Assembly: GCF_022808935.1 (NCBI RefSeq)
Contig: NZ_JAKZFR010000008.1
Span: 62,001 to 126,000, forward strand
Direction: 5' to 3'
From: Geothrix sp. SG200
Lineage (GTDB): Bacteria; Acidobacteriota; Holophagae; Holophagales; Holophagaceae
Length of the DNA: 64,000 bases
A model generated the notes under the pieces. That model searched no databases and was not told where the DNA came from. It was given only the letters and a program-made list of their open reading frames with translations. A program made the position numbers and the translations under genes. Position 1 is the first letter of the stretch. Each line of letters opens with the position of its first letter. Shown here piece after piece: positions 36,354 through 62,986 of this stretch.

Positions 36354-36595
36354 CCCGACAGCCCAACGGGCTGTCTCCGCGGTCCCATTCGCGGGTCCGA
36401 GTCCCATCAGCCACCCGATATGAAGGCGCCCCGCTTCGCGGGGCGCTGATCTGGGGCGGCTGATGGGACTCGAACCCGGCCAACGGCTGGCCCCGGCCCC
36501 CGGGCGCTGCGGAGGCTCCACTGGAGCCTCCTCGCTGGGGCCTACCGGGCCGCCGTTGTTTCTGTCGTGGGTTCGGGCCCGGTTCTCCCCCAATG

Positions 36596-36769: not shown

Positions 36770-36794
36770 AAAAACCCCCCTGGCGGGGGGCTTT
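36770..36794 (-). terminator. Rho-independent terminator in repeat copy 2
   Basis: Same CCCCCC-GCCA-GGGGGG-TTTTT structure as in copy 1, 174 bp away, directly next to the left attachment site. Confidence 0.75.
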
Positions 36795-36844
36795 CGATCT
36801 GGGGCGGCTGATGGGACTCGAACCCACGACACCTGGAATCACAA
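36787..36844. repeat. Left attachment site (tRNA-His 3' duplicate)
   Basis: 58 bp identical to 61282-61339. It contains the tRNA-His 3' half up to the anticodon loop, plus 14 bp of trailer, but lacks the 5' half, so it is not a functional tRNA. To the right the sequence continues with GAAAGGTATCGAA, which is shared with the internal site at 43117-43150. Confidence 0.9.
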
Positions 36845-43227: not shown

Positions 43228-44037
43228 CTAGGGTGTAGCCGGAGAGCCTGGAACAGGCACTCCAGGTATTGCAGTCGATGTCCCGGTATTTATTCCCTTG
43301 ATCTCATTGATCAACGCTGTCTCCGCCGCGTTGATTTTTTCGAGGTGTTCCCCGATGTCGGTGTCTGAAGCGGATTGAACAGTTGGTAGGTCCCCTGGTT
43401 TCGATGGAAGAGGAAGGATGGCCATCTGGATCCCTCCACCAACGCCACCAGGGTTTGTTCGTTTTACGTGATCTATGGTCCAAGCTGCCACCAGCCGTCC
43501 TTCACTTAATGAAGGTTCGGAATCGGACCAGAGCAGGCGTTTTGTGTAAGCCAGAAAAGGATCCGCAATTGCCTGACCACTTCCTAGTGCGACAAAGGGA
43601 AGGTCCTTCGTGCACATCTCCGGTGATCCATTTACGTCAAATTGAAACAGATGTGGCTTTTTATTTACTGGAATTGCGACTAATGATTTGCAAATCGATG
43701 AACCAGCTTCTCCTGTAAGTGACCTTTGGTATTGTGCGGTATGCAAGTAGGGATTAAGGAATTGGGCGATTTCTTTTCCGATCTTGTCCATTACTTGTTC
43801 TGGCTCTGTCAACCCGCTAAAACCGTTGGTTTTCCAGAGCCTAAGAATCTGATTTGAAAGTATTTGCGAAATACCAACGGCCCCTGTAGCAGCGTAAATT
43901 ATATGATCACCAAGGGTTTTGACCTTTTGAACTTGTTGTTGGCCAATGGTGAACATACCACCGGCTCCAAAAGTGGCGGCACTATCAGAGGCAATCAAAA
44001 TTCCGTCTTTACACCGTATTCCAACCAAGACAGTCAT
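43228..44037 (-). CDS. Proteasome-like Ntn-hydrolase (predicted peptidase)
   Basis: This 269-residue protein resembles proteasome beta-subunits or HslV. After Met removal, Thr2 would be the N-terminal nucleophile (MTVLVGIRCKDGILIASDSAA). D18 falls exactly at the Asp17 position of that family, K38 or K40 could be the Lys33 equivalent, and ALGSGQAIADPF matches the conserved Ser-Gly region. The C-terminal ~70 residues, ending in a Pro/Gly/Thr tail, are extra. No ATPase partner is encoded nearby. It is co-transcribed with the small gene upstream (3-bp gap; its AAGGA site lies in that gene). Both are much more AT-rich than the window, a sign of transfer. A toxin, defence or regulatory protease is possible; function is unknown. 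Confidence 0.72.
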   Translation of the reverse strand: MTVLVGIRCKDGILIASDSAATFGAGGMFTIGQQQVQKVKTLGDHIIYAATGAVGISQILSNQILRLWKTNGFSGLTEPEQVMDKIGKEIAQFLNPYLHTAQYQRSLTGEAGSSICKSLVAIPVNKKPHLFQFDVNGSPEMCTKDLPFVALGSGQAIADPFLAYTKRLLWSDSEPSLSEGRLVAAWTIDHVKRTNPGGVGGGIQMAILPLPSKPGDLPTVQSASDTDIGEHLEKINAAETALINEIKGINTGTSTAIPGVPVPGSPATP

Positions 44038-45978: not shown

Positions 45979-46184
45979 CGTCTTGATGGGGGCCAGCGGT
46001 GTCCACCAGGTCGGCTCCGAAAGACGTATCTACCTAGCGTTGCGTGTATTTCCAGAATATTTCGACGCTATGCCCGCCGTCCCCACCAGGGCTTCGCCAC
46101 CTGGATCCACTTTGGGGTGCATTCCAGGATGTGAACGACCTACTCGGCAGTGGACGGGGTCACCCCGCCATCACCGAGGGGTTC

Positions 46185-47327
46185 ATGGCGCAGTCCGGCT
46201 ACAAGAACGGGTTGAAGAAGACCCCCAAGGGTTTCTGGGCATTCAAAATCCGGGTGGGCCGCCAGACCAAGGAAGGGACGTTTCCCACCACCCAGTTGCA
46301 GACGGCGAGAAAACTGCTCGAACGGGTCCGCGATGACCTCCTTCGCCAGCAGGAGGGCCTGGAAGTCGAGCTGACCGTCAGCGAAGCCATGGACTACTGG
46401 CTGGATAGCAGCTACGCCAGAGCCAAGCATCTGGATCGCGCCAACTATGCCTTCGACCGCGCCCGCCCGGTGCTGGGCAGCGTGCAGGTCCGCCGCCTCA
46501 CCCAGGCGACCATCATCGCCTTCAAGCGCACCCTCCTCGAATCCGACGACCCAGACCGGCGCCCGCTCGCTCCGACGACCGTGAACATCGTGCTCCGCTA
46601 CCTGGCGGTGGCCATCAACTGGGCCGTGAAAAACAAGAAAATTGCTGAGAACCCCTTGAAGCAGATGCCTTACGAGCCCGTGCCGGAGGACAACCGACCT
46701 TTCCTCGTCCGGGACGACCTGATCCCCTTCCTGATGAAGGTGGACGCCCTAGGCAACGCCCACCAGCAGGTGGCCATCCGGGCCATGCTCCTTATGGGGC
46801 TACGCGAGTCCGAGGCCCTGCGGCTCCGCTGGGACGGCTTCACCGGCGACTGGGCGTTCTACGCTCCGGCCCGTGCGAAGAACGGGAAGGCTCAGCCTAT
46901 CCCTGTCCAAGCCGAGGTGCTCCGGGCGGTCAGGGCGTTGCCGCAGAAGTCTGAGTGGGTCCTCCCAGGGAGGGCCGGGTCCCTGCACCTGAAGGGCTAC
47001 ACCCGCAAGGTCGTGGAGGAGGCCGGGGTCGAGATCGGCAAGCCCGGGCTGACCCCCCACCGCCTCCGAGCCTCGTGCGCGACCATCCACGCGGCCAGGG
47101 GAGCCAACGCCTTCCAGATCCGTGACCTGCTCCGCCATGAGCGGATTGCGACCAGTCAGAAGTATGTGAACAAGGTCCCATGCAACCTCCAGGTCGTGGT
47201 CCAGACCACGTTCGATGGGATCACCGAGATGTTCACCCGAGTTGTCCCTATCACGCCCCAAGCGATGCCCGGCGGTGTGGGTCAGATCGACCCATCCGAC
47301 GACCCAACCGGAGAACCGAACCGATGA
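46185..47327 (+). CDS. Tyrosine recombinase (phage/island integrase) 1
   Basis: This 380-residue integrase has an N-terminal SAM-like core-binding half (about 60-160). The catalytic domain has R207 (GLRESEALRLRW), the H-x-x-R box H292-RLR295, H318 and the nucleophile Y327. The Arg-I, His, Arg-II, His and Tyr residues are all there, so it should be active. The start at 46185 follows GAGGGG. Its stop overlaps the following HTH gene. It is a candidate enzyme for tRNA-His integration. Confidence 0.9.
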   Translation: MAQSGYKNGLKKTPKGFWAFKIRVGRQTKEGTFPTTQLQTARKLLERVRDDLLRQQEGLEVELTVSEAMDYWLDSSYARAKHLDRANYAFDRARPVLGSVQVRRLTQATIIAFKRTLLESDDPDRRPLAPTTVNIVLRYLAVAINWAVKNKKIAENPLKQMPYEPVPEDNRPFLVRDDLIPFLMKVDALGNAHQQVAIRAMLLMGLRESEALRLRWDGFTGDWAFYAPARAKNGKAQPIPVQAEVLRAVRALPQKSEWVLPGRAGSLHLKGYTRKVVEEAGVEIGKPGLTPHRLRASCATIHAARGANAFQIRDLLRHERIATSQKYVNKVPCNLQVVVQTTFDGITEMFTRVVPITPQAMPGGVGQIDPSDDPTGEPNR

Positions 47328-47620
47328 CCACCACCAGCACGAAGGCCACCCCCACGACGGTGGCCACCGAAGCCGACACCACCACCATGACCTTCAAGCG
47401 CCTGCTCGGCACCGACGAGCTTGTGCTCCGGCTCCGGGAGCTGATGCCCGGCGGGATCTCCAAGCGAACGATCTACCTGTGGTGTGACATGGGGTGCCCG
47501 CACGTCCCTGTTCCCGGCGCCAGGAAGAAGCTGGGCTTCGTATTCACCGAGGTCATGGAGTGGGTCCTGTCCCACAAGGTCGAGCGGAACGTCTTCGCAA
47601 GCCCCCGGCGGGTGGCGTGA
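47324..47620 (+). CDS. Small HTH DNA-binding protein between the two recombinases
   Basis: This 98-residue protein has a Thr-rich N-terminus, then ELMPGGISKRTIYLWCDMGCPHVP, an excisionase/AlpA- or MerR-like helix-turn-helix in which 'SKRTIYLWCDMGCP' would be the recognition part. It is overlapped by 4 nt at its start and 3 nt at its end with the recombinase genes, so all three are translated together. A likely recombination directionality factor or regulator. Confidence 0.72.
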   Translation: MTTTSTKATPTTVATEADTTTMTFKRLLGTDELVLRLRELMPGGISKRTIYLWCDMGCPHVPVPGARKKLGFVFTEVMEWVLSHKVERNVFASPRRVA

Positions 47621-48789
47621 TGAAGAAGAAGGCGCAGGAGAAAACCTCCCAGGCGACGCCTCGGGTGAAGCCCCCCGACGACCATCGCCTCGTCGAGGTC
47701 AACCCAGAGGTCCCCCGAAAAGTCCGTCCGGACCCCGACCTTGTCACCCCGGACTTGGTCGTCCGGATGCCCGCCGCCAAGGTTCCGATAACAAGAGTTA
47801 TCAGCACCACCACCTCACCGGCGGGGATCCAGGTCATCCCCGGCGCGACCCCTGTCCAGATGGTGATCGCCTCCTTCATCAGTGGGGGCCTCGACAGCGA
47901 GGACACCCGGCGTGCTTACCGTCGTCACCTTCACGATGCTGTTGCCATTCTTGGTGTAGAGGATGTCCGTGACCTGACCGGGGCGCGGCTCGCGGGTTAC
48001 CGGGCCCGCCTTTTGGCCGATGGGCGTGGACCTGCCACCCACGCCCAGGCCCTCGCGGCAGTCCGGGCCTTCCTTCGCTGGGTTGGCGGGGTCTTCCACC
48101 TCCGCCAATTCGACGGCGAGGTTCTCCGGGCAACCCTCCGGGCCCCACGCGTCTCCGTGATCAAGCCCTACTTGGTGCTCACCGAGGCGGAGACCGCCAG
48201 GATGATCAAGGCGGCGGCGGACCGCCGGGACCGGGCCATCGTGATGACCCTCCTCGGCGCTGGGCCACGAGTCTCCGAGCTGACCGGCCTTGATGTTCGG
48301 GACCTCCGCCAGGATGCAGACGGCGGAGACATCCTCCACATCCGGGCAGGCAAGGGCGCGAAGGACCGGATGGTCCCCATCCACGAGGAGGTCACCCGGG
48401 CCATCCACGCCTACTTGTCAAGCTCGGGGCGCACGACCACCGACTCGGGGCCCCTGTTCCTTGCCCAGGATCGCGGGCGTCACCTTCGAACCCAGACCAG
48501 GGTCGGAGCGCGGGCGGTCCGGGACCTCATCTATCTTCTGCATGATCTGGCTGAGATCGCGAAGCCCATCAGCCCCCACAGCCTCCGCCACAGCTTCGCG
48601 ATCAGGGCCTTGCGCTACAGCGGGAACATCCTCGCCGTCTCGAAGATGCTCGGCCACGCCAACGTGGCCACGACCCAGACCTACCTGGACCACCTCGGCC
48701 TGGGTGAGCTTCGGCGGGCGGTCCCACATCTTCCTGTAGCGGATGGGGGACGTGATGAAGACGGCACGGCGATGACGATGTTGCCGTGA
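47620..48789 (+). CDS. Tyrosine recombinase 2 (XerC/D-like)
   Basis: This ~389-residue recombinase has a basic, Pro-rich N-terminal extension (~70 residues). A core-binding domain follows (about 85-175), then the catalytic domain with R217 (GAGPRVSELTGL), the beta-hairpin Lys (GKGAKDRMVP), H320-SLR323, H346 and Y355. It is unlike recombinase 1 in sequence detail. The TGATG overlap with the small HTH gene shows co-translation. A pair of different recombinases may be needed for integration and excision. Confidence 0.88.
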   Translation: MKKKAQEKTSQATPRVKPPDDHRLVEVNPEVPRKVRPDPDLVTPDLVVRMPAAKVPITRVISTTTSPAGIQVIPGATPVQMVIASFISGGLDSEDTRRAYRRHLHDAVAILGVEDVRDLTGARLAGYRARLLADGRGPATHAQALAAVRAFLRWVGGVFHLRQFDGEVLRATLRAPRVSVIKPYLVLTEAETARMIKAAADRRDRAIVMTLLGAGPRVSELTGLDVRDLRQDADGGDILHIRAGKGAKDRMVPIHEEVTRAIHAYLSSSGRTTTDSGPLFLAQDRGRHLRTQTRVGARAVRDLIYLLHDLAEIAKPISPHSLRHSFAIRALRYSGNILAVSKMLGHANVATTQTYLDHLGLGELRRAVPHLPVADGGRDEDGTAMTMLP

Positions 48790-48847
48790 ACGGGAAACCC
48801 GACTTCCGAGATCAAGGGTGAACCCTCTTGATCCCTGGAGGCCCCAC

Positions 48848-49171
48848 ATGACCCCAACCGATCTCATCACGGCCAGAGAGACCGCCCAGCGCCTCCACGT
48901 CGCCGTCGGCACCCTCAAGCGATGGCGCCGATGCCATGCCGGTCCTCCCTGGTGCCGGGTTGGGAGCCGGGCCGTCCGCTACTCGGTGGCCCTCCTGGAA
49001 GTCTGGCTGGGCAGGGAGAACGCGGGGGCCGGTTTCGACACGGGGAACAGCTCCGAGGGGCGCGGTCGGACCGACGATCTCGCGGGTATCATCCCTTCGC
49101 CAGCAGCCGACCAGGGCCCGCACCCCCGGCGCTGGAACTTCCTCGCCAACATCCGCCCCCAAGGCGGGTAG
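48848..49171 (+). CDS. Small HTH (excisionase/MerR-like) protein
   Basis: This 107-residue protein has the motif LITARETAQRLHVAVGTLKRWRRCHAGP, a helix-turn-helix with the 'W' and 'GPPW' of excisionase-type DNA-binding proteins. A long unstructured C-terminal part (about 60-107) follows. GGAGG lies six bases upstream of the ATG. A hairpin near 48811-48836 separates it from the recombinase gene. Position suggests an excisionase or regulator for the island or for the reverse transcriptase gene that follows. Confidence 0.68.
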   Translation: MTPTDLITARETAQRLHVAVGTLKRWRRCHAGPPWCRVGSRAVRYSVALLEVWLGRENAGAGFDTGNSSEGRGRTDDLAGIIPSPAADQGPHPRRWNFLANIRPQGG

Positions 49172-49316
49172 GAGTCCCCATGCTCGTCCAACCCTCGAAC
49201 CGTGGCCCTCCTGGCGGCCGACCCCGTTCGCGGCTTCGCCGCGCCCGGGGTCGGGCCCAGACCCGACCAACACCCGGATCGACCATCGTCTTCAGAACTT
49301 CCCCGAGGCCAACGGC

Positions 49317-50765
49317 ATGACCAAGCTAGCCATGAACACCATGTCTGTCACTCGGCGGGGCCGGGGTCGATCCCGCGCGAGTTTCGAGAACACTACCACC
49401 GAGAACATCATCACCATGGAGGACCTCCAGCAGGCGGTCCACAGGATCAACCGAGAGGCGAAGCCCGGGATCGACGGTGTCACCGCCAAGGACTACCTAA
49501 AGGACGCCAACCAGAACCTCCGGCGAGTCTTCAGGGACATCCACAGCGGCCACTGGAGACCCAGGCCCGTGCGCAAGGCCCCGATCTACAAGGGCCCCGG
49601 GGAGAAACGCATCCTGGGTATCCCCTGTATAGAGGACAAGGTCGTGCAGTGGGCCATGGTCTTCCACCTAGAACCGTGGATGGAGGGCATCTTCCTCCCC
49701 TGCTCCTTCGGGTTCAGACCCCACGTGGGGACCATCGACGCCTGCAAGAGGATCCGGGATAACCTCGCCACTTGGCAGGGAGCCTGGATCATCGACGCCG
49801 ACATCCGGAAGTTCTTCGACTCCATCCCCCACGGGGTGCTCATGAGCATCTTGAAGAGGATGGGCCTCTCGAAGTTCTACCGGCGCCTGATCTTCCAGTT
49901 CCTGAAGGCTGGGACCCAGGACGGGCGGCAGTGGGAAGCGACGACCAAGGGAACCCCCCAGGGCGGCGTGATCTCACCCTTGCTGGCGAACGTCGTCCTC
50001 CACGTTGCCCTGGACACGTGGTTCTACGAGACGGTTCTCCCCGGCCTCACCGGACGGGCTGACCTGATCAGATACGCGGACGATTACGTGGCGATGTTCG
50101 AGGACGAGGCGGAAGCCCGGACCTTTCTTCAGGCAGTCACTGCACGCCTGAATGAGTTCGGCCTGGACATCCACCCCGAGAAGACCAGGATCGTCAACTG
50201 CCACGGCACCTCCACGGACATGCCCTCCTCGGACATGGCCACAGCGGAGCCGACGGCGCTGAACTTCCTGGGCTTCACACTCTCCATGGCGCCGGGGCAG
50301 GACTCGTCTTCGATCCAGGTCACCACCTCTCCGATCAGCATCTCCAGATCGGTGGGGAAGTGGCGCCGCTACATGGAGAAGTGGCAATTCCTCTCTGACC
50401 AATGGCAAGCCCATCCTGATCGCCGTGGGGAGCTTGAGGAACCCCTCGACGCCAATGGACTCCTGGACAAGATCCAGAAGAGCGTAGGCGGCTTCCTCGC
50501 CTACCAGAGCCACCTCAGTGACCTCGATGGCCATCTCCACTACTTGGAGGCCGTGAGGCCCGTTCTCGAAGCCCTGATGCGCAGGGCACAGGCCACTAAC
50601 ACCCACCTGACACGTCTCAAGATGATGCTCTCCCCGGGGAACATCCAGACCCTCATCGACGAAGCACGTCAGCGTGGGCGTTACTTTAAGTCTCTATCCG
50701 GCGACTGGCGAACCTACCTGCATGGCTACCAGGTTGTTCGCCCGGGCATGGGAGAAGCCGTCTGA
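49317..50765 (+). CDS. Stand-alone reverse transcriptase, group II-intron-like
   Basis: This 482-residue RT has KPGIDGVTAKDY (RT0/1), RPRPVRKAPIYKG with RILGIPCIEDKVVQWAM (RT2), DADIRKFFDSI (RT3), GTPQGGVISPLLANVVLH (RT4), the catalytic Y253-ADD256 (RT5) and LNFLGFTL (RT7). The C-terminal ~150 residues are alpha-helical, thumb-like and then unfamiliar. There is no HNH endonuclease, and no intron domain V is seen downstream. QG..SP rather than SQ argues against a diversity-generating retroelement. It may be a domesticated RT, possibly for defence or repair. The start at 49317 is the first in-frame ATG before the conserved region. Confidence 0.85.
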   Translation: MTKLAMNTMSVTRRGRGRSRASFENTTTENIITMEDLQQAVHRINREAKPGIDGVTAKDYLKDANQNLRRVFRDIHSGHWRPRPVRKAPIYKGPGEKRILGIPCIEDKVVQWAMVFHLEPWMEGIFLPCSFGFRPHVGTIDACKRIRDNLATWQGAWIIDADIRKFFDSIPHGVLMSILKRMGLSKFYRRLIFQFLKAGTQDGRQWEATTKGTPQGGVISPLLANVVLHVALDTWFYETVLPGLTGRADLIRYADDYVAMFEDEAEARTFLQAVTARLNEFGLDIHPEKTRIVNCHGTSTDMPSSDMATAEPTALNFLGFTLSMAPGQDSSSIQVTTSPISISRSVGKWRRYMEKWQFLSDQWQAHPDRRGELEEPLDANGLLDKIQKSVGGFLAYQSHLSDLDGHLHYLEAVRPVLEALMRRAQATNTHLTRLKMMLSPGNIQTLIDEARQRGRYFKSLSGDWRTYLHGYQVVRPGMGEAV

Positions 50766-50967
50766 TCAGCGGTTTCGACTCGGCGTCAAACGGGGGGACG
50801 CCCCCGACGGCGACCAAGGCTGGTAACAGCCGTGCCCGCTCACACGCGCATGTTTCAAGGCTATACCTACTGTAATTCTGACTCTGCACTTTCTCACGAC
50901 AACATGAGAGGGCGAGCACGCGGCGCCCCGCCATAAAATCCGCGACGGCACTGGCCGGAATCCAGGA

Positions 50968-51024
50968 GACGGGCCCGTGCACGGGCCCGTCGTCATTTTG
51001 GGCTGACCTCAGCAGGGTCAGCCC
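50968..51024. terminator. Two strong hairpins between the RT and hsdR genes
   Basis: A 24-bp perfect palindrome (50968-50991; half-site GACGGGCCCGTG) is followed by TCATTTTG. A second stem, GGGCTGACC / GGTCAGCCC (51000-51008 and 51016-51024), comes next. They lie between converging genes and probably form a bidirectional terminator, although a structured RNA linked to the RT cannot be excluded. The rest of the 295-bp gap shows nothing recognisable. Confidence 0.6.
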
Positions 51025-51060
51025 TGGCGGGCCGGAGCAATTGATCAGGCACTCTGGCGG

Positions 51061-54000
51061 CTATACCGGGGTATCTGCCTTCTCCTTCTTGAGGGCGCCG
51101 TAGACCTTGTGAAGCATGTGCTCCAGGGCCATCTTCCGGAACTCTCCGTCGCCCATGAGCCTGCTGAAGATCTCCTCGTTGCCCTCCATGCGGTCGATGA
51201 CCAAGCCCTCGAAGGCCTTCTCGAAGACGTAGCGGAAATCGTCCTTGGTGTTGGTCGCCGCCGCCTTCTGGAGAGCGTCATTCTCGACGGCCTCCTCCTG
51301 GATCTGATCGAAGAACAACTGGTCGGCCAGGGTGAAGTCCGTCCCGAAGCGCTCGTTCAGGATGTCGATGAGTTCCGACAGGCGGATCTTCTGGTCCTGC
51401 TGGCCGGTGCCCACATCACTCGGCCCCTTCAAGGGTTTCCCGTCCCCGGTATCCAGGTCGATTCGCCCTTCGCTGATCTTTTGCAGCCGGTAGTATTGCA
51501 GCCCGATTTCATCTTCCAGGTGCAGGGCTGGTCCCGCCTCCCGCTTCGGCAGCTTGGTCAGCAGGAACCGGAGGTAGGTGTAGAGGCGCTCCAGATCCGA
51601 GTCCAGGTAAGGGATCACCTGGGAGAGGAAGGCATACATGTTGCGGAAGTTGACCAGCAGGGTCTTCGCCTCCTCCCGCTCCTCCTCCGGGCGACCCTTG
51701 AATCGCTCCACCGCCTTGTCCAGGATGCCGTTCATCTCGGCGCTGTCCTGGAAGGTCTCCTGGCGGTGCGGCCTGAAGTAAACGTCTGCGAACGTCTTGA
51801 CCTCCTCCTCGAAGATCAGGTTGGTCTCCTCGATCTGGTGCTGGAGCCGATAGAGATGCTGAGGGTCTGTCAGCGGCTCCGTCGGTGTGTCCTCGTAGTA
51901 GGGCTTGAACGCCTTGAAGATCTCCTCGGGCTTGTTCCGGAAGTCCAGGATGAAGGTGTCCTCCTTCCCGGCGCAGGTGCGGTTCAGCCGGGATAGGGTT
52001 TGGACGGCCTGAAGGCCCGTCAACTTCTTGTCCACATACATGGTGTGGAGCAGGGGCTGGTCGAAGCCCGTCTGATACTTCTCAGCCACCAGGAGGACTT
52101 GATACTCCTGGGTGTCAAACTTCCCCGGAAGTTCGCTCTCCTTGATGCCGCCGTTCATGCCCACTTCTGTGTAGTTCTTCCCGGGGACCTTGGGGTCCAC
52201 CACCGTGCCCGAGAAGGCCACCAAGGTCTTCACGTCCTGGTAGCCCTTCTTATTGATGTATTTGTCGAAGGCCAGCTTGTAGCGCACGGCATGTAGCCGG
52301 GAGTCGGTTACGACCATGGCCTTAGCCCTTCCCCCGATCTTGTGCCGGATGTGGGTCCGGAAATGCTCCACCATCACCTCGGTCTTGGTGGCCAGGTTGT
52401 GGGGGTGGAGCGTCAGGACACGGGCCAGGGCCCGGGCGGCCTTCTTCCGCTCAACATGCACGTCTTCCTCGGTGGCCTGGATGATGCGGAAGTAGGCCTC
52501 GTAGGTGACGTAGTGCTTGAGAACGTCGTGGATGAACCTCTCTTCGATGGCCTGCCGCATGGTGTAGAGGTGGAAGGGGGATTCCCCCGTGGGGCCGGGC
52601 TCGTCGAACACCTTCTTCGTTTTGTATTTAGGGGTGGCGGTGAAGGCGAAGTAGCTCAAGTTCGGCTGCTTCCCCCGCTTCATCATCTCCCGCACGACCC
52701 CGGCGAGGCGGTCGGGGTCCTCATCCTCCTCCGGTCCGTGCTCGGCGGCGTAGGCTGCCGCCTCTTCGGCCAGACGATCGGCATTGAGGACCCCCTTCAG
52801 CTCCGTGGCGCTCTCGCCGGACTGGGAGCTGTGGGCCTCGTCCACGATGACGGCAAACTGCTTGTCCTTCGTGGCGATGCTCAGGCCGTGGAAGCCTTCC
52901 TCCCGGAGTTTCTCCAGGGTCTCGGCGATGAAGGGGAACTTCTGCAAGGTGGTGATGACGATCGGCGTCCCATTGGCGAGCGCCTGCACCAACTGGCGGG
53001 TGTCCTCATCGACCTTCTGGACCACGCCGTCCTTGTGATCGAATTGGTGGATCGTGTTCTGAAGCTGCTGGTCCAGCACCCGGCGGTCTGTGACCACCAC
53101 CACGCTGTCGAAGACCTTCTTGTCCTGGGCGTCGTGGAGGCTCGACAGGCGGTAGGCCAGCCAGGCGATGGAGTTGGACTTGCCGGAACCAGCGGAGTGC
53201 TGCACCAGATAGTTCCTGCCGGGGCCATGCTCCTGGGCGTGATGCACCAGACGGCGGACACAGTCGAGCTGGTGGTAGCGGGGGAAGATCATCGTCTCCT
53301 TGGTGATCTTCTTGATCCCCTCGTCGGTCAGGATCCGCTTCTCTTCCTCCTGGAGATGCAGGTAGCGGCCCAGGATGTCCATCAGGCTGTCCCGCTGCCA
53401 CACCTCCCGCCAGAGGTAGGCGGTGCGGAACCCGCCATCGGTAGCAGGGGGGTTCCCCGCATGGCCGTGGTTGCCGAGGTTGAAGGGCAAGAAGAAGGTC
53501 TTGTCCCCGCTGAGCCGGGTGGTCATGAAGACCTGATCCGGGTCCACGGCGAAGTGGACCAGGGTGCGCCGCTTGAACTCGAAGATCAGCTCCCGGGGGT
53601 CCCGCTCGGTCTTGTATTGCTTCTTGGCGTGGTCCACCGTCTGGCCCGACATGGGGTTCTTCAACTCCGCCGTGGCGATGGGCAGGCCGTTGAGGAAGAG
53701 CACAAGGTCCAGGGACTTCGTGTGGGTCTCGCCATAGAAGAGCTGCCGGGTCACGCTCAGGACGTTCTTCCCGAAGAGGGCCAGCATGTCTGGGTTCATC
53801 CGGTTGGCGGGGGCAAAGGAGGCCACCCGCAGCTTCTTGCCGTAGCACTTGAACCCCTGCCTCAGCACCTTGAGGATGCCCTTGGTCTCCAGCTCCTTCC
53901 CGAGGTGGTCCAGGACGACCTTCTCGGTCTCGGCCTTGTGAATGGCCTTCAGGCTGTCCCAGGCCTTCGCCTGAGTGGACTGGATGAACCCCAGCACGAG

Positions 54001-54141
54001 AACGGGATCCAGCGCCCGGGCCTTGTCGTAGCGCCCGGGGGCGTTTCCCTTCTCCCGGTAGTCAACGAAGGTGTATCCCCCTTGTGTGGTCAGGTGGTCC
54101 ACGATGGCGTCTTCGAGACGGGCTTCGGTGTGCTTTTTCAT
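51061..54141 (-). CDS. hsdR: Type I restriction enzyme, restriction/translocase subunit
   Basis: This 1026-residue motor and nuclease subunit has an N-terminal PD-(D/E)xK nuclease (D in LDLVLFLNG, then ATAELKNP, about 140-160). The SF2 helicase has Walker A SAGSGKS with K321 and the DEAH box IVDEAH. Motif-VI-like VQTLSRLNR lies near 700. A helical C-terminal domain binds the methylase. The length is normal. It is the last gene of hsdM-rhuM-hsdS-hsdR, with 4-nt overlaps throughout. It cuts DNA lacking the methylation set by hsdM/hsdS. Confidence 0.95.
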   Translation of the reverse strand: MKKHTEARLEDAIVDHLTTQGGYTFVDYREKGNAPGRYDKARALDPVLVLGFIQSTQAKAWDSLKAIHKAETEKVVLDHLGKELETKGILKVLRQGFKCYGKKLRVASFAPANRMNPDMLALFGKNVLSVTRQLFYGETHTKSLDLVLFLNGLPIATAELKNPMSGQTVDHAKKQYKTERDPRELIFEFKRRTLVHFAVDPDQVFMTTRLSGDKTFFLPFNLGNHGHAGNPPATDGGFRTAYLWREVWQRDSLMDILGRYLHLQEEEKRILTDEGIKKITKETMIFPRYHQLDCVRRLVHHAQEHGPGRNYLVQHSAGSGKSNSIAWLAYRLSSLHDAQDKKVFDSVVVVTDRRVLDQQLQNTIHQFDHKDGVVQKVDEDTRQLVQALANGTPIVITTLQKFPFIAETLEKLREEGFHGLSIATKDKQFAVIVDEAHSSQSGESATELKGVLNADRLAEEAAAYAAEHGPEEDEDPDRLAGVVREMMKRGKQPNLSYFAFTATPKYKTKKVFDEPGPTGESPFHLYTMRQAIEERFIHDVLKHYVTYEAYFRIIQATEEDVHVERKKAARALARVLTLHPHNLATKTEVMVEHFRTHIRHKIGGRAKAMVVTDSRLHAVRYKLAFDKYINKKGYQDVKTLVAFSGTVVDPKVPGKNYTEVGMNGGIKESELPGKFDTQEYQVLLVAEKYQTGFDQPLLHTMYVDKKLTGLQAVQTLSRLNRTCAGKEDTFILDFRNKPEEIFKAFKPYYEDTPTEPLTDPQHLYRLQHQIEETNLIFEEEVKTFADVYFRPHRQETFQDSAEMNGILDKAVERFKGRPEEEREEAKTLLVNFRNMYAFLSQVIPYLDSDLERLYTYLRFLLTKLPKREAGPALHLEDEIGLQYYRLQKISEGRIDLDTGDGKPLKGPSDVGTGQQDQKIRLSELIDILNERFGTDFTLADQLFFDQIQEEAVENDALQKAAATNTKDDFRYVFEKAFEGLVIDRMEGNEEIFSRLMGDGEFRKMALEHMLHKVYGALKKEKADTPV

Positions 54142-55487
54142 GACTGGGCCGGGGTGGGAATCGCCACATGACGCACATCGATCTGGCCGGTGGTGGCGGC
54201 GGTGATCAATGCAGTGCGGTAATCCGTGAGTTTTGTGACGGTCTTTCCGGCGGTCTCAACCAATCGGTCGAGATACTCCAGACGGCCTTCAAGGAACCGG
54301 ACAATCACTCGTTGCTCAGCAATGGGTGGCACAGGGAAGGCGAATTTCTTGAGCGTGTCTGACTCCACCTTGAGGGTTCCGTGGGCGGACTCTTGGGCGA
54401 GGCTTGACAGGATTTTGGAGAATCCGGTCAGGCACCAGAAGAGGAAACGGGCGTCCAACTCGCCCCCGCAACGGAGAGCCTTCATGTCCTGGTTCACCGT
54501 CACCGGACGCTCCGTAATGCCCACTGGAAAGGAATGAGCGAGGATCATCCCTCGAACAACTACGAGAACAGCACCGTCCGGGATCAACGCAAGGCCAGTT
54601 TCCTCCAGGGCTTTCTCCGTGATGTGATCAATCGAGTCGGAGATCCTCTCTTGCTTCATGTCCTTGGGGGTGACCCATGGAATGTCACCCTCCCAATACT
54701 CTGCCTTCGACGTGCTTGGGGTCATACCCCCTGACATCGTCATCAAGAAGCCGAGGGGGACGATGTCCCAATGCCTTGGCACCCAACCAAGCCAATCGAT
54801 GCAAGAGTCCCTCATGGGGGCGGACAGGTCCAATCCCTTGGTGGCGGCTCGGGTGATGATCGCCGTTCGCTTCTCCTTGAGCTTCTCGACCAGATCCGTC
54901 TTCTTGGTGATCAGGGCATCGATCTGACTTGTCTTCCAATCCAAGAAGGCTGCGATCTGCCTTTGCTCATCCAGCTGTGGAATGGGGAGATAGAGATCTT
55001 TGTATTTTTCGGCGCTGAAGTTCTCGATGGTGGCTTGGATCGATGTGGAACGAATGCAAGCCCAGTAACACGCTGTCTGACAGTAATAAAAAGCATACCT
55101 AGGAAGAATGACCGTCTGATCAGTTCGATATCGGATCAAATAGCCCGCATAGGCCGCTCTTCCCCAACTAGCAAAATACTGAAAACTCTTGCCGACGGTC
55201 CCGCTACGTGCAAGAAGGATGTCTCCATCTTGCAGTAAATAAGGTTCTGCAACGTGTTCTTCGAGGGAGCGGAAGGTGTCTTCATGAAGGGTGCCGTCTT
55301 CCTTCACATCAGTGATCCGAATGTAGCGAGGAAGTTGAGGATCATCTAGAACTGCGGCTTCATTCGCGCCATACATCAGAGTTTCCGATGCCGTGAACCG
55401 TAGCCGCCTAGATGACCAATGTCGAGGTAGGGCTCCCAGCCAGCCCGTCCAGCAGTCGGCGTATTCGGGGTAGGCCGGATACCTCAC
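54138..55487 (-). CDS. hsdS: Type I restriction-modification specificity subunit
   Basis: This 449-residue subunit has two target-recognition domains (about 15-180 and 220-400) with the usual GDILLARSGTVGK and IPLPQL-like phrases and spacer helices (LDEQRQIAAFLDWKTSQIDALI; IAEQRVIVRFLEGRLEYLDRLV). The recognition sequence should be bipartite but cannot be read by eye. It starts with GTG at 55487, whose GTGA overlaps the rhuM stop. The first half is noticeably more AT-rich than the second, as expected for an exchanged recognition domain. Confidence 0.93.
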   Translation of the reverse strand: MRYPAYPEYADCWTGWLGALPRHWSSRRLRFTASETLMYGANEAAVLDDPQLPRYIRITDVKEDGTLHEDTFRSLEEHVAEPYLLQDGDILLARSGTVGKSFQYFASWGRAAYAGYLIRYRTDQTVILPRYAFYYCQTACYWACIRSTSIQATIENFSAEKYKDLYLPIPQLDEQRQIAAFLDWKTSQIDALITKKTDLVEKLKEKRTAIITRAATKGLDLSAPMRDSCIDWLGWVPRHWDIVPLGFLMTMSGGMTPSTSKAEYWEGDIPWVTPKDMKQERISDSIDHITEKALEETGLALIPDGAVLVVVRGMILAHSFPVGITERPVTVNQDMKALRCGGELDARFLFWCLTGFSKILSSLAQESAHGTLKVESDTLKKFAFPVPPIAEQRVIVRFLEGRLEYLDRLVETAGKTVTKLTDYRTALITAATTGQIDVRHVAIPTPAQS

Positions 55488-56488
55488 GCCCCACCTTCCT
55501 TCCCCTTCGCCTGCTTCTCAATGGCTTCCAGGGTCTTGATGTCCTCCGTGTCCGCATCAAGCGCCTCGGCTTGGCGGCGGTTCTGGTCGAAGGCCTCGTA
55601 GCGGTCGTGGGCGATAGCCTTCATGTCCTCGGTGCTGATGGACCCGGCGTGGGTCAGCACGGGGCGGTCGTTGAAGACCAGCAACCTGTCCACGTTCTCC
55701 CGCCAGTAGGCCAGGGTGAGGCTCTTCCGCTCCTTCACCCGGAGTTCGGCCTGCTCCAGGAAGATCACGACCAGGCGGTTCAGGGTGTCGACTTCCTCGG
55801 CGGAGAGGTAGTTCTTGGCGACGATGACATCCTGCTTGCGGACCCTGGACCCGCTCCAGGTGGTGAGGGCCATGTTGGGGGCGTCGGGGTTCGCCCGAGT
55901 GACCACGATCTCCGCCGCCGTCTTCTGGCACACGGCATAGAGGAGCTTGTTCTGCACCTCCGCGAAGAAGAGGTGGGCGTGGGTGTCGTCGGCCCGGTAG
56001 TCGTCGCTGAGGGCGAAGAGGTCCCGGACCTTCTGGTAGAAGCGCTTCTCGGAGGCCCGGATCTCCCGGATGCGGGCCAGCAACTCGTCGAAGTAGTCCC
56101 AGCCGCCGGGGTTCTTGAGGCGTTCGTCGTCCATGACGAAGCCCTTCACCAGGTATTCCGTCAGGTGGCTCGTGGCCCACTGGCGGAACTGGGTGCCCCG
56201 GGGGGACCGCACCCGGTAGCCGATGGCCAGGATCATCTCGATGCGATAAACCTTGACCTTGTAGTTCTTGCCATCCGAGGCAGTCGTCAAGGATTCCTTT
56301 ACAACTGCCCCTTCCGGCAGCTCACCCTCCTCCAGGATGTGCTTGGCGTGGATGCTGACGTTCTGCTTGGTGGTATCGAACAGCTCGGCGATCTCCCCCT
56401 GGGATAGCCACACGGTGCCGTCCATGGCCCGGAACTGCACCTGGGCTTTGCCGTCCTCGCTCCGGTAGAGCACGACCTCGCCGCTCAT
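55484..56488 (-). CDS. rhuM: RhuM-family protein encoded inside the restriction operon
   Basis: This 334-residue RhuM/PF13310-like protein has an N-terminal wHTH-like part (VWLSQGEIAELFDTTKQNVSIHAKHI). A central VYRIEMILAIGYRVRSPRGTQFR motif is typical of Bro-N/RhuM-type proteins, followed by LLYAVCQKTAAEIV and a charged C-terminus. It often occurs between hsd genes. Its role is unsettled; a regulatory or protective function has been suggested by location only. It overlaps both neighbours by 4 nt. Confidence 0.85.
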   Translation of the reverse strand: MSGEVVLYRSEDGKAQVQFRAMDGTVWLSQGEIAELFDTTKQNVSIHAKHILEEGELPEGAVVKESLTTASDGKNYKVKVYRIEMILAIGYRVRSPRGTQFRQWATSHLTEYLVKGFVMDDERLKNPGGWDYFDELLARIREIRASEKRFYQKVRDLFALSDDYRADDTHAHLFFAEVQNKLLYAVCQKTAAEIVVTRANPDAPNMALTTWSGSRVRKQDVIVAKNYLSAEEVDTLNRLVVIFLEQAELRVKERKSLTLAYWRENVDRLLVFNDRPVLTHAGSISTEDMKAIAHDRYEAFDQNRRQAEALDADTEDIKTLEAIEKQAKGKEGGA

Positions 56489-58749
56489 GCCGTGACCCCT
56501 TCCAGCATGGCCATGATCTCCTTCTCAAGCGTCTTGATGTCGGCCTCGATCGCCTCCAGGGGGCGTGGCGGCTCATATTGGTAGAAGTGGCGGGTAAATG
56601 GGATCTCGTAGCCGACCTTCACCTTCTTGTGGTCGATCCAGGCGTCCGCCCGGTAGGGCAGCACCTCGGCCTTGAGGTAGGCCTCGCAGTGGTCCTTCAC
56701 CAAGGCGATGAGCTTCGTGAGGTCCACCTTCCCCTTGTTCTTCTTGCCCTCGTAGTCCAAGGGGAGGGGCAGGGCGATGCCCGGAGGCAAGGGGACGTTC
56801 TCCGTGTCCCGAAGGTCCGCATCCGGCTCCTGGTTCCCCTTGGCGTCCAGGCAGGGCTTCGCCGTGGGGTCCTTCTCTCCGAGGCTCCCAGGGGAAACCA
56901 GGGCTGTTTTCAGGGTGCCTTCCAGCTCGGTCTCCGCCTGCTCGAAGGCCAAGGAGAGCTGTTTGAGGAAGGCCTTCCGGTCCTTCACCACGTGGCCATC
57001 CGTGAAGTCCGCCTTCATGCCTTCGAGGACCTCCAGGATGGCAGCCTGGGCGGCCTTCCCCTGTAACTCCTCCTCGGCCTTCTTTTTCTTGTTCTTCCGC
57101 TTGAGGGAGATCGCCAGATCCATGAAGGCGCTGGTCGCCTTGAACCGGGCGATGCGCTCATCGGTCACGGCGAAGTTCAGGCGCAGGGGGCGTTCGACGG
57201 TGATTCTCAGGAACCCGAGGTCCCGGTTGTCGAGCACTTTGCTGACGATCAGACCCTTGGTCTGGTCTCGCTTGGGATCGATGTTGGTCTGAATCTCTCC
57301 AACGGTCATTTGCACGTCGTGCTGGAAATCCCCGTAGAGCTTGGTGATCACCCCGATGTGATCGGGAGAACCATCCTGGCCATCCCCGATCTTCTTCCGC
57401 TTGTCGCCCAGGCTCTTCTTCATCTTCCAGGCGAAGTCCGTAGCATTGATGAGCTGGACCTTGCCCTTCCGGTGCTCCGGCTTTCGGTTGGTCACGAGCC
57501 AGATGTAGGTCGAGATGCCCGTGTTGTAGAAGAGCTGGTCCGGCAGGCCGACCACTGCTTCAAGCATGTCGTTCTCGATGATCCACCTGCGGATGTTGCT
57601 CTCCCCGCCTCCAGCGTCTCCGGTGAACAGAGGCGAGCCGTTGAAGACGATGGCGATGCGGGAGCCCTCGTCGTCCCCGGCGGGCCGCATCTTGGAGATC
57701 ATGTGGAGCAGGAACAGGAGGGCTCCGTCGTTGATACGGGGCAGACCGGGGCCAAAGCGTCCGTTGAATCCGAACTCGTTGTGCTCCCGGGTGACGTGGT
57801 CCTTCTCCGGCTTCCACTCCACGCCGAAGGGAGGGTTCGCCAGCATGTAATGGAACTGCTCGTTGGGATGGCCGTCGCCATCCACGAAGCCTTCCTTGGT
57901 CTTCCCCGTGCCCAGGGTGTCCCCGAAGGCAATGTTCTGGGCATCTTCGCCCTTGATCATGAGGTCGGAGCCGCAGATGGCGAACGACTCGGGGTTGTAT
58001 TCCTGGCCGTAGAGCCCAAGGGTGGCGCTGGGGTTCAGCCCCTTCTCCGGATCTTTGATCAGCTTCTCGGACTCTGAGAGCATCCCGCCCGTGCCACAGG
58101 TCGGGTCGTAGATCTTGATGACCTTCCCCTGGGTGTAGACCAGATCGTCGTGGGTGAAGAGGAGCTTCACCATGAGGTTGATGACTTCACGGGGAGTGAA
58201 GTGGTCCCCGGCCTCCTCGTTGGCCTGCTCGTTGAACCGCCGGACCAGGTCCTCGAACAAATAGCCCATGGCGATGTTTGGGATGGTGTCCGGATGCAGG
58301 TCCACAGCCGCCACCTGCTTGACGACCTCGAAGAGGCGGTTGGCCTCCTCCAGCTTCTCGATCTCCTCCTCGAACTTGAACTTTTCGATGATCTTCCGGG
58401 CCCGGGAGGAAAACCCGGCCATGAAGTTCACCAGGTTGGCGGCGAGCTTGTCCGGGTCCCCCAGGAGCTTCTGGAACGTGAAGTCGCTGGTGTTGTGGAA
58501 GGTCAGCTTGAACCTGTGGTTGATGGTCTTCTCGATGGTGTCCGGGTCCGACTTGCCGTCCGCCTGCAACTTCTTGTGCAGGGCGATGACGGCCTCCTTG
58601 CTGCTCTCCAGGACGCAGTCCAGGCGCCGGAGGACGACCAGGGGGATCATCACCCGTCGGTATTGGGGTGGCCGGTAGGGGCCCCGAAGGAGGTTGGCGA
58701 TGTTCCAGATGACATCGCCCTGCTGCTTGATGGTGTCGAGGTTGGCCAT
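56485..58749 (-). CDS. hsdM: Type I restriction-modification methyltransferase subunit
   Basis: This 754-residue N6-adenine methyltransferase has an N-terminal HsdM_N helical domain (about 1-160), the SAM-binding motif YDPTCGTGGML (near 215) and the catalytic N305-PPF308. It is longer than a typical HsdM (~500) because of a ~200-residue helical C-terminus (from about 530) found in larger type I methylases. It is the first gene of the operon; ~256 bp separate it from the divergent gene at 59006. Confidence 0.94.
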   Translation of the reverse strand: MANLDTIKQQGDVIWNIANLLRGPYRPPQYRRVMIPLVVLRRLDCVLESSKEAVIALHKKLQADGKSDPDTIEKTINHRFKLTFHNTSDFTFQKLLGDPDKLAANLVNFMAGFSSRARKIIEKFKFEEEIEKLEEANRLFEVVKQVAAVDLHPDTIPNIAMGYLFEDLVRRFNEQANEEAGDHFTPREVINLMVKLLFTHDDLVYTQGKVIKIYDPTCGTGGMLSESEKLIKDPEKGLNPSATLGLYGQEYNPESFAICGSDLMIKGEDAQNIAFGDTLGTGKTKEGFVDGDGHPNEQFHYMLANPPFGVEWKPEKDHVTREHNEFGFNGRFGPGLPRINDGALLFLLHMISKMRPAGDDEGSRIAIVFNGSPLFTGDAGGGESNIRRWIIENDMLEAVVGLPDQLFYNTGISTYIWLVTNRKPEHRKGKVQLINATDFAWKMKKSLGDKRKKIGDGQDGSPDHIGVITKLYGDFQHDVQMTVGEIQTNIDPKRDQTKGLIVSKVLDNRDLGFLRITVERPLRLNFAVTDERIARFKATSAFMDLAISLKRKNKKKKAEEELQGKAAQAAILEVLEGMKADFTDGHVVKDRKAFLKQLSLAFEQAETELEGTLKTALVSPGSLGEKDPTAKPCLDAKGNQEPDADLRDTENVPLPPGIALPLPLDYEGKKNKGKVDLTKLIALVKDHCEAYLKAEVLPYRADAWIDHKKVKVGYEIPFTRHFYQYEPPRPLEAIEADIKTLEKEIMAMLEGVTA

Positions 58750-61253: not shown

Positions 61254-61290
61254 GAAAAAGCCCCGGAGATGCAGCATCCACGGGGCTTTC
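61254..61290 (-). terminator. Terminator downstream of tRNA-His
   Basis: On the minus strand GAAAGCCCCG...CGGGGCTTTTT, with an inner GATGC/GCATC stem. It is placed directly behind the tRNA 3' end. Confidence 0.75.
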
Positions 61291-61339
61291 GATCTGGGGC
61301 GGCTGATGGGACTCGAACCCACGACACCTGGAATCACAA
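61282..61339. repeat. Right attachment site, inside tRNA-His
   Basis: 58 bp identical to 36787-36844. It covers the trailer, acceptor, T arm, variable region and part of the anticodon arm of the intact tRNA gene, and ends in the anticodon loop. Confidence 0.9.
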
Positions 61340-61372
61340 TCCAGTACTCTAACCAACTGAGCTACAGCCGCC
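61295..61372 (-). tRNA. tRNA-His (anticodon GTG)
   Basis: The minus strand reads GGCGGCTGTAGCTCAGTTGG at the 5' end. The anticodon stem CTGGA/TTCCAG carries a GTG anticodon, the T arm is GTGGGTTCGAGTCCCAT, and the 3' end is CAGCCGCCCCA with encoded CCA. G-1 pairs with C73, the special mark of tRNA-His. The gene is complete and is the target of the island at its 3' side. Confidence 0.96.
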
Positions 61373-61480
61373 GTCGGACCATTCAGATTATCCGGGGCGG
61401 TCCCGGATGGCCAGCGGGAACCTTCGGGGGAGTGCGGTCATCGAAAGAAGCAGGCCGGAATTCGGCAAAGCGAGGAGTCT

Positions 61481-62986
61481 ATGAATCGTCAGATGAAGCA
61501 GGTCCTGGGGTTGTCCGCGTTCGCGGCCGGCTGCATGGCCCTGGGGATGGGCCTCAGCTACGGTTGGCAGGCCCAGGCGCAGGAGGAAAAGCCGGTGACG
61601 GTGGAAGCGCGGGGTGCGGATCGCCTCCCGCCCATCGCGGAGGTGGCCGAGAAGCTGAACCCCACCGTGGTGGCCATCACCAACACCAGTTTCGTGAAGA
61701 ATCAGCGCTTCCAGCACCCCCAGATCGGGGGCGATGACTTCTTCGACTTCTTCTTCGGCCCCGGCGGGCCGCAGCAGCGGCGGTCCCCGCGGGGCGGCGA
61801 GGACGAACAGCGTGCCGTTTCCGGCGGCTCAGGCGTGATCATCAGCCCCCAGGGCGAGATCCTCACCAACTACCACGTCATCGCCAGCATGGGCGGCGCC
61901 GCGGACAATTCCCTGGAGGTGAAGACCAGCGACGGGAAGAGCTACAAGGCCACGGTCCTGGGCAAGGACAAGGAGCTGGACATCGCCCTCATCAAGATCG
62001 ACGCGGCCCACCTGCCCTTCGCCAAGCTGGGCGAATCGGATTCCCTCAAGATCGGCGAGTGGGTGGTGGCCATCGGCAACCCCTTCGGCCTCGAGCACAC
62101 CGTCACCCAGGGCATCATCAGCGCCAAGGGCCGCAAGCTCGACACCGGCGTCAGCTCCTTCCTCCAGACCGACGCCGCCATCAACCGCGGCAACTCCGGC
62201 GGGCCCCTGCTGAATCTCAAGGGCGAGGTCATCGGCATCAACACCGCCATCAACCCCGCGGGCCAGAACATCGGCTTCGCCGTGCCCATCAGCCAGGTGA
62301 ACCGCATCATCAAGGACCTCCGCAGCGGCAAGCCGGTGAGCCGGGGCTACCTTGGCGTGGGGCCGCAGGATCTGGACCAGGCCTACCAGGACGCCCTGGG
62401 CGCCAAGGAAGGCGTGGTGGTGAGCACCGTGGAGAAGGGCCAGGCGGCGGACAAGGCGGGCGTTCAGCGCCTGGATGTCATCACCGCGGTGGACGGCCAG
62501 CCCGTGCGCAGCCAGGACGAGCTGGTGAGCGCGATCTCCAGCCGCCGGGCGGGCGATTCCGTGAAGCTCAGCATCTGGCGTGACGGCAAGACCCTCACCC
62601 TGACCGCCACGCTGGGGGATCGGAAGGCCCTGGAAGAGCAGCGCCGACGCGATTCCGGCGAGGAATCCGACGAGGAAGGCGGCCAGGGCGCCCAGGGTGA
62701 GGTGAAGGGCGTGAACCTGGAGAAGCTCTACGGGTTCACGGTCGAGCCCCTCGACGTGAAGCGACGGCTCAAGGGCGTGGTGGTGACCTCCGTGGACCCC
62801 CGTTCCCCGGCGGCCGAGCGCGGCCTGGCCCCCGGCCTGGTCATTACCGAGGTGGGCCGGCAGCCCGTGAACAACCTGGCCGAGTTCAACGCCCAGGTGA
62901 AGAAGGCCGGCGGCAAGACCCTGCTGCTCTTCATCCAGAGCCCCAACGGGGCCCAGAAGATCACCCTGGCCATTCCGCCCCGCTGA
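61481..62986 (+). CDS. htrA: Do/HtrA-family periplasmic serine protease
   Basis: This 501-residue protease for misfolded envelope proteins has a signal peptide or anchor (about 1-34). The trypsin-like domain has the triad H132 (LTNYHVI), D167 (ELDIAL) and S239 (RGNSGGPL). Two PDZ domains follow (about 285-375 and 405-495), separated by a charged linker rich in Glu, Asp and Arg. The ATG is preceded by GAGGAG. It lies outside the island and looks like ordinary chromosomal backbone. Confidence 0.95.
   Translation: MNRQMKQVLGLSAFAAGCMALGMGLSYGWQAQAQEEKPVTVEARGADRLPPIAEVAEKLNPTVVAITNTSFVKNQRFQHPQIGGDDFFDFFFGPGGPQQRRSPRGGEDEQRAVSGGSGVIISPQGEILTNYHVIASMGGAADNSLEVKTSDGKSYKATVLGKDKELDIALIKIDAAHLPFAKLGESDSLKIGEWVVAIGNPFGLEHTVTQGIISAKGRKLDTGVSSFLQTDAAINRGNSGGPLLNLKGEVIGINTAINPAGQNIGFAVPISQVNRIIKDLRSGKPVSRGYLGVGPQDLDQAYQDALGAKEGVVVSTVEKGQAADKAGVQRLDVITAVDGQPVRSQDELVSAISSRRAGDSVKLSIWRDGKTLTLTATLGDRKALEEQRRRDSGEESDEEGGQGAQGEVKGVNLEKLYGFTVEPLDVKRRLKGVVVTSVDPRSPAAERGLAPGLVITEVGRQPVNNLAEFNAQVKKAGGKTLLLFIQSPNGAQKITLAIPPR

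Follow-up and report, generated by a model that had tools for sequence, protein, structure and literature searches.

What has become of a group II intron reverse transcriptase (RT) that is found without its intron? RTs of this origin have repeatedly become host tools, as in CRISPR spacer acquisition and DNA repair. The window analysed here, a stretch of 64,000 nucleotides from Geothrix sp. SG200, offers a well-bounded case, in which the YADD motif is kept and the ribozyme RNA is gone, in a genus with intron-bearing relatives. It thus gives a view of which regions of the enzyme are the first to change once the intron is lost. A preliminary description of the sequence had proposed a domesticated RT rather than a moving intron, situated on a defence island behind integrase and excisionase-type genes.

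The RT gene and its island

The gene lies on a mobile element whose features are as follows.

36448-61281, no strand: 24.8-kb genomic island at tRNA-His, absent from the sister genome G017
36787-36844, + strand: attL-like repeat, 58 bp identical to the 3' half of tRNA-His (61282-61339)
46044-47327, + strand: phage-type tyrosine integrase (domain profile match)
47494-48789, + strand: XerC-like tyrosine recombinase (domain profile match)
48848-49171, + strand: small HTH_17 / excisionase-like protein (weak match)
49317-50765, + strand: stand-alone group II-like RT, 482 aa (TIGR04416 276 bits, RVT_1 123 bits)
50968-50991, + strand: terminator-like hairpin between the RT gene and the restriction operon (such sites are no commoner than in shuffles)
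51061-58749, - strand: type I restriction-modification (RM) operon with hsdR, hsdS, a RhuM family gene and hsdM, convergent to the RT gene
61282-61371, - strand: tRNA-His and attR-like repeat, right end of the island

In G017 the counterparts of 36391-36477 and 61281-61587 are adjacent and the left flank runs directly into tRNA-His, which defines 36448-61281 as an island with a precise empty site. Partial copies of this half at 36448 and 36622 bring the att-like copies at the left end to three, with a spacing of 174 bp. The phage-type integrase is the probable island integrase. The position of the RT behind integrase and excisionase-type genes was borne out, in that two tyrosine recombinases and the weakly matching HTH/excisionase-like gene lie upstream. 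A conserved partnership of the RT with the XerC-like recombinase was considered and rejected, as the two best homologues of the recombinase have no adjoining RT. The island carries two small HTH-like ORFs, one directly before the RT, and its further cargo includes an RND-type efflux pump, an ArsR-type regulator and Fic. The term defence island therefore fits only in part: the element is mobile and has a type I restriction system, but with metal efflux also aboard its cargo is mixed.

Other genes of the island were noted in passing. The RhuM-family gene (55484-56488; PADLOC candidate PDC-S05) is flanked by hsdS and hsdM, and contig 10 of the genome G045 has a comparable RhuM gene with an hsdR-like fragment behind it (L158). 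A proteasome-subunit-like protein is encoded at 43228-44037 (Pfam PF00227, 46 bits).

The RT gene is present in a single copy in the genome and its ORF is intact, with an ATG at 49317, a GAGG 8 nt upstream and a TGA at 50763-50765; the frame is open upstream as far as 48936. The protein is divided as follows.

49407-50282, + strand: RT core, residues 31-322
49950-49967, + strand: GTPQGG motif, inside the core
50073-50084, + strand: YADD motif of group II type, inside the core (residues 253-256)
50331-50585, + strand: thumb / X (maturase) region, residues 339-423, three helices, with the highest sequence divergence among 57 RTs
50598-50762, + strand: C-terminal extension, with predicted helices 428-437 and 440-458 and a low-confidence tail; no endonuclease (En) domain

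The match to the group II RT/maturase model TIGR04416 covers profile positions 3-302 of 353 and falls just below the cut-off of 300 bits, compared with 361-434 bits for intron RT controls. A domain profile search found no HNH/En domain, and the earlier account of a complete RT with YADD and without an endonuclease stands. The best PDB sequence match was the GsI-IIC RT, which was also the closest fold (Z 30.2, rmsd 3.8 over 368 residues, reaching model residue 451) to an AlphaFold2 model built from 57 sequences; other fold matches were the G2L4 RT (Z 25.2), DRT9 (23.0) and DRT2 (21.4). The model has a pLDDT of 85, with values below 50 confined to residues 1-28 and 456-482, and predicts three long C-terminal helices (339-365, 379-400 and 403-423), as in group II thumbs, followed by two shorter ones. 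The C-terminal 150 or so residues, previously called unfamiliar, are thus mostly a diverged group II thumb/X region (339-423), followed by two short helices and a tail of low confidence, and contain no unrelated domain. The C-terminal part had no match among plasmids, and within the genus only matches at E about 0.01, the best in an ORF that by sequence is chemoreceptor-like.

Search for intron RNA

No intron RNA had been visible in the preliminary description, which had named a convincing domain V/VI downstream, or a place inside an active intron clade, as a sign against its reading. Rfam intron models gave no match at E<=10 in 47000-52500, for either D5 or D1-D4. The same models detected RF02005 D1-D4 (62-188 bits) upstream in all nine of nine sister introns, and D5 in five of the nine, so the empty result does not come from a blind test. 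A nucleotide profile (nhmmer) tuned to the family for D5 and D1-D4, and built partly from the same loci that it scored, detected D5 at about 100 of 114 RT relatives and at least one of the two elements at 104; in 98 cases the D5 lay from -72 to +99 nt relative to the stop codon. The ten relatives with neither include two congeneric RTs described below and one locus cut at a contig edge; four more (L023, L024, L029 and L030) belong to a remote clade of RTs, probably class C, to which the model is unsuited. Beside the window RT this profile found nothing.

50690-50865, + strand: expected position of D5 from homologous introns (-72 to +99 nt relative to the stop codon); no D5 here

Across the whole genome, which is 98% complete, RF00029 (D5) had no match and RF02005 only two of 8-10 bits, against a cut-off of 49. 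With no intron RNA match near the gene and no convincing one genome-wide, no cognate intron is detectable for the RT, whether in cis or in trans. By the defining RNA, the window RT is not a mobile intron.

Ancestry and divergence of the enzyme

The nearest relatives are RTs of group II introns that lack an endonuclease, found in Holophagaceae and other Acidobacteriota, on Rhizobium plasmids and elsewhere; none closer turned up when genome and viral contigs were scanned for patterns. The reference locus L008 resembles RmInt1 in its C-terminal sequence and presumably belongs to that class. The window RT shares with the RmInt1-like class D/E introns 36-45% identity over the core, YADD, GTPQGGVISPLLAN, FLGFT and the lack of an En domain. 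It differs from them in having no intron RNA, in a strongly diverged thumb/X region that bears an insertion, and in not keeping the C-terminal RRSQR...W segment. Judged from sequence, its ancestry lies among endonuclease-less RmInt1-like introns of the RF02005 type, with an uncertain exact position on a long branch.

RTs without intron RNA also occur in two further genomes of the genus (L037:9105-10475 and L038:8990-10504). No DNA is shared among the regions that flank the three intron-less RTs, and the RT of G045 is a closer match to Holophagaceae introns than to the window RT. FastTree joined the window RT with the two congeneric RTs, whereas a site-heterogeneous mixture model did not join the three. 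The AU test rejected neither a single clade of the three (p 0.52) nor a position of the window RT inside class E-like introns (p 0.415), and their grouping is therefore not taken as settled; as all three branches are long, the FastTree grouping is possibly long-branch attraction. Placement within an active intron clade was thus not demonstrated by trees or AU tests, although the AU test did not reject the class E-like position. We consider it doubtful that the three RTs form a new domesticated lineage derived from class D/E-type introns in Holophagaceae, which would be an island-spread defence or repair module with a mechanism of its own. In the second of these genomes, a DRT4 gene (L038:2859-4601, - strand; PADLOC 523 bits) lies within a type I RM operon, 4.4 kb from the intron-less RT.

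Divergence of the window RT is unevenly spread over the protein. Compared with 54 relatives, the core retains 48 of 52 highly conserved columns. The thumb/X region scores -0.28 bits per column, the lowest of 57 sequences (introns, 1.36 +- 0.53), and the gap between core and thumb is 1.62, against a maximum of 1.33 among intron RTs, these thumb scores hinging on an uncertain alignment. The end branch measures 1.59 substitutions per site, on which an unconstrained gene should have acquired about 33 stop mutations; none is seen, and part of the branch may predate loss of the intron. Taken from sequence comparison, the pattern reads as polymerase function retained and maturase function relaxed. 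The RT had no match to the maturase model GIIM, but since an RmInt1-like intron control also missed it, absence of GIIM was dropped as a sign of lost maturase function.

Several known identities were also tried and rejected. The window RT is not a G2L4 enzyme, which is marked by YIDD and a 9-residue RT3a insertion (PMC12337344), for it has YADD and, compared with homologues, lacks the RT3a plug insertion between residues 186 and 212. YADD likewise sets it apart from UG10 (G2L3), with its YVDD (PMC4244168). It is not a CRISPR-associated RT (G2L1/G2L2), as it has no Cas1 or Cas6 fusion and its neighbours are recombinases, HTH, type I RM and Fic genes. Nor is it a retron, with 48 bits for retron_St85 against a cut-off of 235, a score that any group II RT would give, and no retron RNA in Rfam scans. 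Scores for DRT and UG families fell far below the NCBIfam cut-offs (Drt3a 71 against 200 bits, Drt2 52 against 390, Drt4 33 against 450). Group II-like RTs without a ribozyme are a loose known class (PMC4424553), and the G2L5 RTs of Gimesia maris are reported as seemingly transposon-located (PMC8934634); by description, the basis of this comparison, the window RT resembles G2L5 and other unplaced orphans in being a group II-like RT without a ribozyme (PMC4424553, PMC8934634). The best reading is that it fits the broad G2L class, a group II-type RT without ribozyme RNA, as a new addition to the G2L-type orphans.

Possible present roles of the RT

We consider it probable that the window RT is a free-standing enzyme domesticated from the protein of an endonuclease-less mobile group II intron. 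The ancestor would have been an intron protein of the RmInt1-like lineage, without an endonuclease, from an RF02005-type intron. The intron RNA would then have been lost; selection would have maintained the polymerase core while the maturase/thumb surface drifted, and splicing and retrohoming would as a result no longer be the job of the RT. Given descent from mobile introns and loss of the intron RNA, it has probably taken on a different job, and would now ride as cargo of the tRNA-His island. The enzyme would be active, synthesising DNA on host or invader RNA or DNA ends or on a bound RNA, and this synthesis may serve DNA-end repair or anti-phage defence. Repair and defence are not told apart by sequence alone; we lean slightly towards an accessory function from which the island benefits.

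The conserved core, the predicted group II RT fold, the lack of the expected stops, the missing intron RNA, the disproportionate divergence of the thumb, the bounded island and the intron-less congeneric RTs together make domestication the probable outcome. Against it, no close ortholog was found that would show selection since loss of the intron, the upstream recombinase module has no RT link in its two best homologues, and known domesticated RTs carry YIDD (G2L4) or YVDD (UG10) where the window RT has the intron-like YADD (PMC4244168, PMC12337344). Of the earlier proposal, then, the stand-alone RT without endonuclease or intron RNA on a mobile island held, and neither of the signs named against it emerged, though a place in an active intron clade is still compatible with the trees.

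Next in likelihood after a domesticated free-standing RT, and itself possible though not favoured, is a relic, in which a group II intron has degraded and its protein gene has outlived the RNA and is heading for loss, without present function. A single copy in one genome with no orthologs found, together with the strongly diverged thumb, would suit such a relic, as would fragmentation toward inactive forms, a fate proposed for group II introns (PMC4496777). However, the 482-aa ORF is intact, with its core positions kept and none of the stops expected under neutrality, and no trace of D1-D4 or D5 lies beside it.

Within the preferred reading of a domesticated RT, two roles can be envisaged. Phage defence by a new DRT-like system, with a possible RNA partner from 49030-49316 or 50766-51060, is somewhat unlikely. 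The shared RT palm and an island with a restriction system recall the DRT/UG defence RTs (DRT2, DRT9, UG17); the type I RM operon adjoins the RT on the mobile island, and a congener has its intron-less RT close to DRT4 inside such an operon. Nevertheless, the PADLOC DRT and UG scores of the window RT do not stand out from those of ordinary group II intron RTs, and its flanks have no similarity to the two congeneric loci. Folding of both flanks is somewhat more stable than that of shuffled sequence (z -1.8 and -2.3), but such folds are nothing unusual in GC-rich DNA, and the terminator-like hairpin falls within one of the two.

The second role, DNA repair in the manner of G2L4 by microhomology-mediated end joining, is unlikely. 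Like the G2L4 RT of Pseudomonas, the window RT is a free-standing group II-type enzyme without D/En domains and with an extended C-terminal thumb region, and the similarity of its predicted fold to G2L4 would be consistent with such a role. Also in favour, basal repair activity has been described even in a mobile group II intron RT (PMC12337344). In contrast to G2L4, however, it has YADD instead of YIDD and no RT3a insertion, and is borne on an island in one strain only rather than being a conserved host gene.

Finally, the RT might act in trans as the maturase of a group II intron that lacks an ORF and lies at another genomic site. Such an arrangement is known in principle for group II introns, but here it is very improbable and largely contradicted, as the 98%-complete genome has no D5 or convincing D1-D4 and the maturase region is the most diverged part of the RT.

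Two further loci were noted in the genus. An ORF at L037:8197-9126 (+ strand) overlaps the start of the intron-less RT and by eye has an ADP-ribosyltransferase-like fold; its only library matches were phrog_4776 and phrog_25265, phage families without an assigned function. In another congener, an apparently truncated group II intron RT of 291 aa (L141:5910-6785, - strand) has retained both D1-D4 and D5.
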